Shown: positions 7,318 through 10,719 of the stretch, piece by piece
How the letters are laid out: every line of letters begins with the position of its first letter
Numbering within the stretch: the stretch's first letter is position 1
Assembly (NCBI RefSeq): GCF_900103085.1
Contig: NZ_FMWR01000001.1
Coordinates: 1 to 64,000 of the forward strand
Direction: 5' to 3'
Origin: Gilliamella mensalis
GTDB lineage: Bacteria > Pseudomonadota > Gammaproteobacteria > Enterobacterales > Orbaceae
Length of the DNA: 64,000 bases
Notes under the pieces: generated by a model
What the model saw: only the letters and a program-made list of their open reading frames with translations
The model's database searches: none
What the model was told of the DNA's origin: nothing
Position numbers and translations under genes: made by a program

Positions 7318-7702
7318 TGTAAATACCCCAAACTTAGTACAAGATTCAAGTAGAAAATAATACTACTTGTTTTAGTGTTTTATATTCAATCGGCGTCATA
7401 TTATTTAATGCTTCATAAGGTCTTTCGGTGTTATAACTGGATAACCATGATATTCAGCCAGTTTATCTAAGTAACGAGTAATTCTCCCTGCCGGTAAGCT
7501 TACTGCAATATCAATGCCTAGCGCCTCACGATTAAAGTCATCGAGGACATTGAATGTCCTAAAGCGACGTTGATTACCACTACTGTCACTCATAAAATCC
7601 ATTGACCAACATTCACCTTGTTTATTGGGTACTAATAACCTTTCCGGGCATCGTGGAGGAATGCGCTGTTTACGCTTTACCCTTACTTTTGAAGTTTGTA
7701 TA
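7318..7702 (-). pseudogene. IS3-family (IS407-like) transposase remnant
   Basis: The minus strand gives RVKRKQRIPPRCPERLLVPN and then SMDFMSDSSGNQRRFRTFN, VLDDFNREALGIDIAVSLPA and ITRYLDKLAEYHGYP. These are the start and middle of the IS407-group DDE domain. The frame then jumps to the C-terminal block LSSYNTERPYEALNNMTP, so the part with the second Asp and the Glu is deleted. The outer end at 7318 carries the terminal sequence TGTAAATACCCC, shared with the element at 10310-10719. Confidence 0.7.
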
Positions 7703-7955: not shown

Positions 7956-8501
7956 TCAGGAAAAATGGCCACTAAGTTCCAATTTTTTCCGTACAATATT
8001 TCTAGCTCTATGAAGTCTACTTTTCACTGCTTCAATGCTTAGTCCAAGAATATCGGCCACCTCTGGAGCTGTTAATTCATTAATATCTCTTAGAATTAAG
8101 ACAGTTCGATAAGTGCCCGGAAGAGAAATTATTGCTCTACTCAAGTCAATTTTTAAGACTGATTGTTCTGAGCTACTAATATAATTAGCTTCATATAATT
8201 GTTCTACCTCATTTGGAGCCATATGAAAATTTTTTTTATTTGACCTAAAAATTCGATAACATTCTCGTTCGATGATACGAAACAACCATGATGACAATGC
8301 AGAGATTGTACGTAAGACCTCTATTTTTTTATATAAAATCCAAAGAGCAACCTGCACTGCATCTTCAGCATCCTCAGCATTAGAACAAACTTTTCTTGAA
8401 AAACGATTTAGATCTGGTTGACATATTTCAAGTAATTTTAGTAAAGCTACTTGGTCACCAGAACGAGCCAATACGATAAGATTTTCATCAATTTTATTCA
8501 T
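7956..8501 (-). CDS. ECF-type RNA polymerase sigma factor
   Basis: The 181-residue protein has the two-domain layout of group IV (ECF) sigma factors. Region 2 lies at about residues 8-80, with AEDAEDAVQVALWILYKK and a Trp-rich -10 recognition helix (LSSWLFRIIERECYR). A linker leads to region 4 at about 118-175, with SLPGTYRTVLILRDINELTA and the helix-turn-helix EVADILGLSIEAVKSRLHRAR. The start is taken as ATG 8501, which has AAGGAG five bases upstream; a GTG two codons earlier overlaps that site. No anti-sigma factor of a known family is adjacent. A motif in its promoter recurs before two neighbouring genes, pointing to self-regulation. Confidence 0.9.
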   Translation of the reverse strand: MNKIDENLIVLARSGDQVALLKLLEICQPDLNRFSRKVCSNAEDAEDAVQVALWILYKKIEVLRTISALSSWLFRIIERECYRIFRSNKKNFHMAPNEVEQLYEANYISSSEQSVLKIDLSRAIISLPGTYRTVLILRDINELTAPEVADILGLSIEAVKSRLHRARNIVRKKLELSGHFS

Positions 8502-8523: not shown

Positions 8524-8557
8524 TAGAAGAGATTTAATTCTATAAAAAGGATTCAAA
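8524..8557 (-). promoter_or_regulatory. Candidate ECF-sigma promoter, copy 1 (before the sigma gene)
   Basis: On the minus strand TTTGAATCC followed by a T run (GAATCC at 8549-8554) is spaced 17 bases from CTCTTC (from 8531). The same pair with the same 17-base spacing recurs at 9534-9539/9516 and 9928-9933/9910, each before a minus-strand gene. The sigma gene starts about 25 bases further on. Assignment to this sigma factor is inferred. Confidence 0.5.
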
Positions 8558-8733
8558 TATTTTATATTTTTTTAAATAGAATATAAAAATCTGTAATATT
8601 TAAGTGTTAAAAATATGATAACTATAAGATATATATCAATAACTAGTAATTATATCTATTATATAATGCCATCAATTTTTTACTATCGAAAGTAGGTAAT
8701 AACATCATAATTCTTTATGAAGAATAACCTCTC
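8558..8733. other. AT-rich intergenic stretch
   Basis: This segment lies between the sigma gene promoter and the adaptor remnant. I see no gene or clear structure in it. Confidence 0.4.
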
Positions 8734-9026
8734 TCATAAAATATGACAACGATTGTAACTATCCCCTAAAATAGCTAATAAATCGCCTTTTCTTACTTTA
8801 TGATTATCAAGTACTAGAACATCAGTTATAATTTCAGGTACTCTAGTGGGCACAATACTTACATTCCCATGAACATAAGCATTATTTGTCTCTTCGAAAA
8901 AATAACCATGCCAAACCATTCGAACTAGTACAATACAACCAATCATAAATCCCACACCCAAAATATATTTCTTCAAATTTTTACGAATATTATTTGAAGA
9001 TAATTTTTTTCATCTTCTTGCGACAT
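8734..9026 (-). pseudogene. EmrA/HlyD-type membrane fusion protein, N-terminal remnant
   Basis: The longest frame (80 residues from 8976) has one membrane anchor, then NNAYVHGNVSIVPTRVPEII and the biotinyl-lipoyl-like strand VLDNHKVRKGDLLAILGDS, typical of EmrA. It stops after about 80 of the usual 350-400 residues. A better start with a hydrophilic lead (ATG at 9026, MSQEDEKN) is out of frame with it by one base, at a run of A residues, so the gene has a frameshift as well as a truncation. It was probably the partner of the DHA2 exporter at 5747. Confidence 0.65.
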
Positions 9027-9170
9027 CTTATCTAACCTCTATCACCATGTTATGGCTTTCATTCTTCTAGATAAACATAGGGTGCATAGTTCTGTTTTAA
9101 GAGCTATTAGAACTAGTAAATTTCGGGTCAAAACTATGCAATCTACGACCACCTCACATATGCATATAAA
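9027..9170. other. Short intergenic stretch
   Basis: It lies between the adaptor remnant and the first DUF2892 gene. No gene or terminator is evident. Confidence 0.35.
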
Positions 9171-9413
9171 CTATTTATCTTTTTTTGCGCATGGTTCACA
9201 AGTTTTACCTGAACTATAAATAGTAAGAATGAGACCTATAACCCAGCAAGCAGGGCATCCTCGCAATACCACAAATCCGCAAATAGCAGAAACCCCCCCT
9301 AACACTACAGTTAACAGAGTACCTTGAATAAACAAATAGATGGCTAGACCTAAAAAAACAAATCCTAGACACCCTCGTAACAAATGAACTACAACAGAAG
9401 AACTTTTAAACAT
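9171..9413 (-). CDS. Small DUF2892-type membrane protein with extra Cys pairs
   Basis: The start is set at ATG 9413, which has GGAGG at 9421-9425; the longer frame to 9479 lacks such a site. The 80-residue product has two membrane helices. It opens with the hydrophilic FKSSSVVVHLLRGCLGF expected of the DUF2892 (YgaP C-terminal-like) family. It carries four cysteines in two pairs, GCPACW in the second helix and TCEPCAKKD at the C-terminus, which could bind metal or form a redox disulfide; that is inference. A candidate ECF promoter lies about 100 bases upstream, and a paralogue follows at 9661. Confidence 0.75.
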   Translation of the reverse strand: MFKSSSVVVHLLRGCLGFVFLGLAIYLFIQGTLLTVVLGGVSAICGFVVLRGCPACWVIGLILTIYSSGKTCEPCAKKDK

Positions 9414-9508
9414 ATTTTCGCCTCCAAAGTTATTATGTTTAGTATGCAATTTAATCGAAGAAAATGGTTTTCCATTCACATTTAAATGTAAGTTGCAAAC
9501 CTGCTTAC

Positions 9509-9542
9509 ATAAAGTGCATATAAAACTAAAAAAGAATTCAAA
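9509..9542 (-). promoter_or_regulatory. Candidate ECF-sigma promoter, copy 2
   Basis: The minus strand reads TTTGAATTC plus a T run (GAATTC at 9534-9539), a 17-base gap, then CACTTTATG from 9516. It matches the motifs before the sigma gene and before the second DUF2892 gene, with one changed base in each half. Confidence 0.45.
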
Positions 9543-9600
9543 AAAAATTCATTTAATTTTAATGAATTTAAGTGCAATAAATCTGAGTACAGTCTTTAGC

Positions 9601-9644
9601 TTCCTTGAAGTAAATAGTTTTTATGAGTACCGAACTTCAAGGAA
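9601..9644. terminator. Perfect 10-base inverted repeat after the second DUF2892 gene
   Basis: TTCCTTGAAG (9601-9610) pairs perfectly with CTTCAAGGAA (9635-9644) across a 24-base loop. It lies just downstream of the minus-strand gene ending at 9661. No long U run follows, so it may be a mRNA-end structure or an operator rather than a classic terminator. Confidence 0.35.
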
Positions 9645-9660
9645 AACTACAATTAATGAT

Positions 9661-9864
9661 TTAATCTATTTTTCTTTTCGCGATAAAACACATAAGGCAA
9701 AAACCCGTAACGCCAGTACAAGCTAAAACACATCCTACTGCTATGGCTATCCACATAACTAAATTAGTTGGTGCAAAAAGAAAACCCAAGCAAGCAATAC
9801 ACGTGCCAATAAAAACTCTACATACACGTTCAAAACTAGGGACATTTTTTTTAAAATTCATCAT
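9661..9864 (-). CDS. Small DUF2892-family inner-membrane protein
   Basis: The 67-residue protein has the DUF2892 pattern: a short basic N-terminus with KKNVPSFERVCRVFIGTCIA, two membrane helices, and a Gly-Cys-rich second helix (GCVLACTGVTGFCLMCFIA), ending in a Lys/Arg tail. Family members are small inner-membrane proteins, often linked to sulfur or thiol metabolism (YgaP), with no firm role when they stand alone. AGAGG precedes the double ATG. A candidate ECF promoter lies about 45 bases upstream. With its paralogue at 9171 it appears to form a regulon with the ECF sigma factor at 7956. Confidence 0.75.
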   Translation of the reverse strand: MMNFKKNVPSFERVCRVFIGTCIACLGFLFAPTNLVMWIAIAVGCVLACTGVTGFCLMCFIAKRKID

Positions 9865-9902
9865 CTACCTCTCTTTTTTATGGTTAAAGATTAATCTCAC
9901 TA

Positions 9903-9936
9903 ATAAAGAGCTAGCCAAATTAAAAAAGGATTCAAA
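9903..9936 (-). promoter_or_regulatory. Candidate ECF-sigma promoter, copy 3
   Basis: The minus strand reads TTTGAATCC plus a T run (GAATCC at 9928-9933), a 17-base gap, then CTCTTTATT from 9910. The spacing is identical to the other two copies. The DUF2892 gene starts about 40 bases downstream. Confidence 0.5.
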
Positions 9937-9939
9937 AAA

Positions 9940-10309
9940 TTTTCATTTAAATTTAGTATCAATGATTTTAGATTTAATAAATTTGAGTGCAGCCCTTAAT
10001 TACGGTTTGCTGATATTTAAAGTGCATAGTGGATTAGACAAAAAGATGAGTATATGTTGTTACAAATAAAACATTAAACAAAATTATTATTAGCTTAGCA
10101 TTAACATACTGATTAACTAGACAGTTCTTAGATGTTTTATAAATTAACGAATAGGTATTTTCTCCAAGAAAGTTATACAAATTAACAATTAATCCCCCTT
10201 ATTTCCCCTAATTGGATATTATTTAATTTAATATATTACATATAATAAAATAAACTGTGTTTGAGTATATACAATATGATATATAACAATAAGAAACGAA
10301 GAACTTTAA
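9940..10309. other. AT-rich gap between the sigma locus and the IS derivative
   Basis: I see no supported gene here. A plus-strand frame across 9743-10069 is antisense to the DUF2892 gene and lacks coding features. Confidence 0.4.
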
Positions 10310-10719
10310 TGTAAATACCCCAAACTTAGTACAAGATTCAAGTAAAAAATAATCCTGCTTGTCTTAGGGTTTTATACTCAACAAAATACGAGTAGATAAT
10401 GGACAGGAATTTACTGGAAGAGTCTTTTCCAACGGGGCAAAATCACACGGTATCACTCTTGATTATATTGAGCCCAGTAGCCCATATCAAAATGATTACA
10501 TTGAACGATTTAACCGGACTTATTGAACTGAAGTGTTAGATTTGTATCTTTTTAACAACCTAGAGCAAGCAAGGTGAATGACCGAAGAATGGCTAACCAG
10601 TTATAACACCGAAAGACCTCATGAAGCACTAAATAATATGACACCGATTGAGTATAAAACACTAAAACAAGCAGCATGATTTTCTACGTCTATTTTGTAC
10701 TAACTATGGGGTATTTACA
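10310..10719 (+). mobile_element. 410-base internally rearranged IS3-family derivative
   Basis: The segment is bounded by TGTAAATACCCCA at the left and its inverted copy TGGGGTATTTACA at the right. The right part (from about 10385, plus strand) encodes IRVDNGQEFTGRVFSNGAK, IEPSSPYQNDYIERFNRTY and then LTSYNTERPHEALNNMTPIE. This is the C-terminal third of an IS407-group transposase, with two TGA stops that look like mutated CGA codons. The first 70 bases are an inverted copy of the same right end, closely matching 7318-7390. Both ends are therefore the 3' end of the IS. It cannot make transposase but could be moved in trans. Confidence 0.65.

Follow-up and report, generated by a model that had tools for sequence, protein, structure and literature searches.

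Does an ECF sigma factor of Gilliamella mensalis, a member of a genus of bee-gut symbionts, direct its own expression together with that of its small neighbors, and if so, what restrains it and to what might it respond? In the 64,000-nucleotide stretch of DNA analyzed here (hereafter the window), a sequence-only reading had picked out a bipartite motif with an identical gap upstream of three minus-strand genes, namely the ECF sigma gene and "two DUF2892 genes", and had proposed an autoregulated ECF promoter. Comparisons across the genome, the genus and more distant lineages make it very probable that the sites are versions of one promoter, through which the ECF sigma would drive itself, dufA and probably dufB, likely in a thiol or peroxide response.

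The ECF cluster and its genes

The features of the cluster are collected in Table 1. ECF (group IV) sigma factors have sigma2 and sigma4 domains only and comprise under about 200 residues; the window's sigma conforms in its two domains, its length of about 181 residues and, at the sequence level, its shared autoregulated promoter. This length counts from ATG 8501, which follows AAGGAG (the listed open reading frame starts at GTG 8507), and leaves about 14 residues beyond the sigma4 match. SigW is its best sequence match in the PDB, and the nearest named homolog, from Gilliamella bombicola R-53248, is 99% identical.

Table 1. Coordinates of the ECF cluster in the window, all on the minus strand
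Feature	Position	Strand	Description
ECF sigma factor	7956-8501	minus	Sigma70_r2 and Sigma70_r4_2 (Pfam, over cut-off)
Sigma-gene promoter	8526-8557	minus	-35 TTTGAATCC (8549-8557), N17, -10 CTCTTC (8526-8531)
EmrA-type efflux adaptor remnant	8734-8976	minus	80 aa; TIGR00998 positions 11-79 of 334, under cut-off
dufB	9171-9413	minus	small, mostly hydrophobic; invariant RGCPxC (family alignment)
dufB putative promoter	9511-9542	minus	TTTGAATTC-N17-CACTTT; weakest among the three sites
dufB promoter region	9509-9598	minus	homologous to 9903-9998; local alignment score 68, reached by 0 of 500 resamplings
dufA	9661-9864	minus	DUF2892 / PF11127 YgaP-like_TM, E=1.5e-12, 47.9 bits against a cut-off of 25.3
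dufA promoter	9905-9936	minus	-35 TTTGAATCC (9928-9936), N17, -10 CTCTTT (9905-9910)
dufA promoter region, other copy	9903-9998	minus	homologous to 9509-9598

Of the two genes that had been called DUF2892, dufA deserves the name by its Pfam match, whereas dufB has neither a Pfam nor an NCBIfam assignment. The profile of the dufB family aligns with that of dufA at an hhalign probability of 86.5%, and dufB looks like a distant relative of the dufA family. The cysteine motif of dufA is GFCLMC here and GFCPxC among its relatives in the family alignment. The start of dufB is placed at ATG 9413, after GGAGG (the listed frame opens at GTG 9479), and the gene recurs adjacent to sigma in Undibacterium, Delftia and other Gilliamella.

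The EmrA-type remnant between dufB and sigma lies within the cluster and is no part of the switch. At the same place, the Gilliamella genome G007 (L146, 6862-8271) has a longer broken adaptor and, by eye, an EmrB-like fragment, for which no convincing Pfam match was obtained; the cluster may thus formerly have included an efflux pump. Inverted copies of 131 nt, 89% identical, flank the whole (window 7318-7448 and 10589-10719) and look like an insertion-sequence end; window 10310-10381 was noted along with them, and the open reading frame at 7405-7602 is an integrase-like remnant (rve, E=0.001, under cut-off). Judged by its sequence, the flanked cluster resembles a decayed composite transposon. 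A distant DNA search of the cluster against plasmids gave no match.

Three sites, two independent occurrences

Upstream of sigma (ATG 8501), dufB (ATG 9413) and dufA (ATG 9864), the minus strand carries three sites of the common pattern TTTGAATYC-N17-CWCTTY, all with the 17-base gap that had been claimed. The whole 2.28-Mb genome, in which a widespread motif would have spoken against the proposal, contains exactly three exact matches when the gap may vary from 16 to 18, all within the 1.4-kb cluster, and not one exact match to the reversed control under the same gaps. Likewise, a window scan that includes the T-run and tolerates up to three mismatches finds the three sites only, against a mean of 0.20 in shuffled sequences, none of 100 of which reaches three. 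Across the genome, up to three mismatches bring in four additional matches, compared with five for the control. The cross-species consensus TGAAYCCTTTTN13CTCTW is matched exactly at two places in the genome, the sigma and dufA sites, while the dufB site, with two mismatches, equals the background (seven other places, five control matches). Those seven further sites were considered as members of a wider regulon and, beside the five control matches, were set aside; the regulon in this genome looks purely local.

The intergenic regions had also been described as otherwise unlike, which is true of the sigma region, where sequence upstream of the motif shows no homology (723 and 116 of 1000 resamplings reach the alignment scores), and untrue of the other two. 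The regions upstream of dufA and dufB can be aligned over about 90 bases (Table 1), of which about 60 lie upstream of the motifs and are homologous beyond them (score reached in 0 of 1000 resamplings); all these resamplings, and those of the dufA spacing test below, are first-order Markov. This homology requires a correction on INDEPENDENCE, since it leaves two independent motif occurrences in the window, not three. The dufA promoter region was thus probably copied locally to dufB. Elsewhere in the genus, G007 has dufA and dufB close together with the motif before dufA and sigma, and the motif scan finds none before dufB; in Gilliamella Pas-s25, the spacing of the dufB site is shorter by two bases and the sigma site reads TTCTTC instead of CTCTTC.

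Promoter footprint in other lineages

The footprint TGAAYCC-N17-CTCT is kept before DUF2892–sigma operons of sigma relatives in beta- and alphaproteobacteria. The order is promoter–dufA–sigma–dufB in the loci of Undibacterium (L011, L013, L016), L009 and Delftia; in Variovorax and Reyranella, no dufB is present in the locus stretches examined, of which that of L007 ends just behind sigma. On a Nostoc plasmid, the order is sigma, TGAATCC-N17-CTCTTT and a DUF2892 gene, with no motif found before the sigma gene itself. The locus L021, from a metagenome-assembled genome labelled Chloroflexi, is similar to the Reyranella loci and may have been misbinned.

Spacing was assessed in the regions upstream of 29 dufA homologs outside Gilliamella, from related loci whose counts are not independent and are uncorrected for phylogeny, with a pattern chosen after 17 of the regions had been viewed, which makes the test partly dependent: GAAYC[CG]-N17-CTC[TC] occurs in 19 and the N18 form in seven, all Variovorax (0.04 expected for either), three regions have neither, and each other spacing from 8 to 27 occurs in none or one (0.02 to 0.07 expected per spacing). 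The set excludes repeated genomes or sequences (L163, L165, L167, L168, L178), L024 (start of dufA not located), L179-L182 and L193 (where dufA was not found) and L196. A matrix of the core positions, built from 20 non-Gilliamella promoters (21 minus the near-duplicate L011), scores the window's dufA, sigma and dufB sites at 24.2, 23.5 and 12.5 bits, ranks 1 to 3 over about 128,000 window positions, with the next position at 10.4. As its training promoters were picked by motif or by eye, this ranking speaks for agreement between lineages, not independent discovery; what the footprint tests show independently is the position of the sites, in front of dufA. With the spacer included (21 promoters), the matrix ranks the window sites 1, 5 and below 12, perhaps because the composition of spacers varies with that of the genome.

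Co-occurrence of motif and sigma within Gilliamella

Among 35 Gilliamella genomes (the window's own and 34 others), 11 carry the sigma (E 2e-42 or better) and the other 24 only a distant ECF paralog. The relaxed motif TTTGAAYCYTTTTN13CWCT, outside which the window's own dufB site falls, is found in 9 of the 11 and none of the 24 (Fisher P = 8e-7, uncorrected for phylogeny); over 60 genomes it occurs 13 times, all in these nine, and its reversed control nowhere. The two exceptions, G002 and G021, have TGAACCT-N17-CTCT and TGAATCC-N17-CTCT, respectively, before sigma. PF11127 is likewise restricted within the genus to sigma-carrying genomes (G000, G007, G017, G020, G023); the six clade-2 genomes give no match to it, and their operons run sigma–dufB–CMD. 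In G006 (L153, 7862-8391), the sigma homolog is broken by stop codons, and promoter and dufB are kept.

Regulon members elsewhere

At one mismatch, the beta-type pattern TGAAYCCTTTN14CTCTHGG gives nine sites in seven of the 21 genomes behind the loci, with no control matches: seven lie at dufA–sigma and one before an AhpD-like CMD gene (L161), and the L162 site precedes a thioredoxin-like gene, then a CcdA/DsbD-like gene. The other 14 genomes, Gilliamella and Variovorax included, yield nothing, as their promoters depart from the beta-type form. The same search of 118 Undibacterium relatives, several of whose sites are common to both searches, gives 15 sites in nine genomes against four control matches. 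Thirteen of these sites lie at dufA–sigma, dufA, dufB, AhpD/CMD or thioredoxin–CcdA genes, six at dufA–sigma, two before CMD and one before thioredoxin–CcdA; for the two remaining (G456, G460), chance would suffice. G470 alone has four sites on one 3.7-kb contig, before dufB, dufA, thioredoxin–CcdA-like genes and a second dufA that the contig end truncates, the genes being named by resemblance and not by Pfam; it gives no sigma match at 1e-25, perhaps owing to the contig end, where sigma could follow.

Sigma matches occur in 20 of the 118 genomes. Six of the seven with at least 77% identity have the motif; the 13 with a sigma only 40-49% identical show no beta-type motif except the G460 site, and six of their dufA upstream regions have the looser GAAYC[CG]-N17-CTC[TC]. 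The stretches examined around four distant sigma loci, L179-L182, reach about 1.5 kb or less to either side and show neither dufA nor dufB. In some loci, CMD or thioredoxin and CcdA genes belong to the operon or precede it: the order is dufA–sigma–CMD in Reyranella L023, and thioredoxin and CcdA genes precede dufA–sigma in L176. The CMD proteins score with the model of the AhpD core domain; a search without positive control found no AhpD gene in eight Gilliamella genomes (five of clade 1 with sigma, three without sigma). The beta-type motif has no match in 369 same-class genomes, a scan that is a background measure only, because this pattern does not cover the sites of the window itself, and that indicates that chance sites of it are rare.

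Three viral contigs (L207, L208, L209) carry an exact match to the beta-type promoter TGAAYCCTTTTN13CTCTTGG. A sigma 46% identical to that of Undibacterium resides on plasmids of Klebsiella, Salmonella, E. coli, Citrobacter and Providencia (L193, 6724-9504; L194), adjoining a CMD protein, a dehalogenase and a TetR gene in a cluster with SulP, DoxX and DUF692 genes; the E. coli plasmid copy has Cys39 and Cys81 and lacks Cys27. One such plasmid stretch was scanned and contains no TGAAYCC pattern, the looser pattern appearing once, inside a gene, and so the enterobacterial plasmids are not counted as promoter carriers.

Alternative explanations

Could the three matches be a coincidence of T-rich intergenic DNA? 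Without the T-run, at two mismatches, the window yields five matches where 2.13 are expected, a number that 9 of 100 shuffles reach; with a window signal this weak, much of the motif's specificity must reside in the T-run, and the dufB site by itself sits at background under the cross-species consensus. Against coincidence stand the genome-wide confinement of exact matches to the three sites, the presence of the footprint in G+C-rich genomes and the ranks 1-3 given by a matrix built without Gilliamella, which make it next to negligible as an account of all three; on these grounds, chance in AT-rich DNA can be strongly rejected for two of them (sigma, dufA). A conserved site this long could in principle also be an operator, bound by a regulator distinct from sigma, but the motif is asymmetric, its boxes keep 17 (or 18) bases across a poorly conserved spacer, and the relaxed motif is confined within Gilliamella to sigma-carrying genomes. 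No other recurring neighbor regulator was seen among the open reading frames listed (by eye, unsystematically), and we regard an operator as very improbable and favor a promoter read by the ECF sigma.

How the sigma is restrained is a separate matter. A cognate anti-sigma gene nearby is typical of ECF sigma factors and not universal, and no anti-sigma domain was recognized among the neighbors scanned. It is conceivable that DufA, DufB or both are the cognate membrane anti-sigma, exerting negative feedback and sensing through CxxC in the membrane: both are small and mostly hydrophobic, most relatives have the CxxC, dufA overlaps the sigma start by four bases in several loci (e.g., L008, L023), and no other candidate has been recognized. 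However, about 66-87 mostly hydrophobic residues offer little space to a classical anti-sigma domain, neither family alignment shows a ZAS-type HxxxCxxC on reading, and PF11127 is also present in 10 of 14 control genomes and nine non-Gilliamella genomes. Moreover, neither protein is universal, with clade-2 Gilliamella devoid of PF11127, the Variovorax and Reyranella stretches devoid of dufB and the four distant sigma loci devoid of both genes. Such a role for DufA or DufB is thus rather doubtful. An alternative still less likely, in our estimate, is that sigma is its own redox sensor, in which Cys39 and Cys81, through a reversible disulfide or a bound ligand, would gate core or promoter binding. 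Numbered from ATG 8501, both cysteines lie in sigma2 and occur in 47 of 47 family members (down to 43% identity to the nearer of two queries) versus 2 of 69 other ECFs, and in 28 of 28 members at 90% redundancy; Cys27 is found in 38 of the 47. Cysteines this invariant would permit a sensor inside sigma.

Relation to known ECF systems

The regulatory domain fused to ECF41 factors is C-terminal. According to the accessible part of the ECF41 paper, those factors likewise have no obvious anti-sigma gene, a local target gene and CMD/AhpD-like neighbors with CxxC, which are tied to oxidative stress there; unlike the present family, they have TGTCAC-type promoters with CGTC or similar in place of TGAAYCC-N17-CTCT, and the fused domain where the window's sigma has about 14 residues after the sigma4 match (PMC3426412). 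ECF41 membership was considered and rejected on both counts, the -35 element being TGAAYCC and the fused C-terminal domain absent.

Caulobacter sigmaF/NrsF, as far as the available text describes it, is similar in its shared promoter before its own operon, in the conserved cysteines of the system and in a regulon of limited size, made up of small membrane proteins and unknown ones; it differs in its promoter GTAACC-N16-CGAA, in the placement of the cysteines in NrsF, a DUF1109 negative regulator of six predicted helices, and in its targets, which are DUF2282/DUF692/DUF2063/DoxX and YedY, not DUF2892 (PMC3511200). In Haemophilus influenzae RpoE2/HrsE, the ECF controls the neighboring redox genes msrAB and its gene is co-transcribed with a 67-aa partner; dissimilar are HrsE, a cytoplasmic anti-sigma with conserved ZAS residues, and the very limited control of RpoE2 over its own promoter, and DUF2892 is unmentioned in the portion consulted (PMC7907618). 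Common to these two systems, in the same excerpts, are redox or metal roles and small partners (PMC3511200; PMC7907618). Assignment to the ECF systems with ZAS anti-sigmas (RsrA, HrsE) was likewise dismissed, as the DufA and DufB alignments, by reading, have CxxC without HxxxC. ECF factors have been reviewed (PMC8103513). No title or abstract describing this sigma family or module came up in a literature search outside which most subscription papers lay.

Proposed mechanism and significance

ECF factors generally bind the -35 element through sigma4 and open the -10 element through sigma2. In the mechanism we propose, sigma4 would read TGAAYCC(TTT) and sigma2 CTCT, at a spacing of 17 bases; the sigma gene would amplify itself by positive feedback, and dufA would be induced, as would probably dufB from its duplicated, weaker copy. 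The -35 GAAYC fits AAC or AAT, and the -10 is CTCT, not CGT; a typical ECF promoter has an AAC-type -35 and a CGT-type -10, as outlined in the accessible text of PMC3426412. The sites and their uniqueness, footprint, spacing, co-occurrence with sigma and gene linkage are read directly from the DNA. For the sigma and dufA sites, the cross-species footprint, the matched spacing and the co-occurrence with the sigma gene strongly support autoregulation by the ECF sigma at the sequence level, as had been proposed; the dufB site is probably a target too, to judge from where it lies in the cluster and from the homology between its region and the dufA promoter region. We infer the transcription of these sites by sigma, the inducing signal and what DufA and DufB do. 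Most likely the module responds to peroxides or to the oxidation of thiols, perhaps outside the cytoplasm, a view drawn from the AhpD-like and thioredoxin–CcdA genes in the promoter and operon sets of other species.

Related modules of sigma, promoter and dufA recur in further proteobacteria, and one is carried by a Nostoc plasmid. They give an ECF family for which the literature search yielded no description both a promoter that can be tested and a conserved regulon of few genes, and they place DUF2892-type proteins in a possible context, thiol and peroxide stress. The stringent promoter, together with the lack of a recognized anti-sigma, makes this sigma a candidate orthogonal switch. If sigma were indeed its own sensor, the cell would need no anti-sigma, and as a thiol switch complete in itself the module could pass from one phylum to another.
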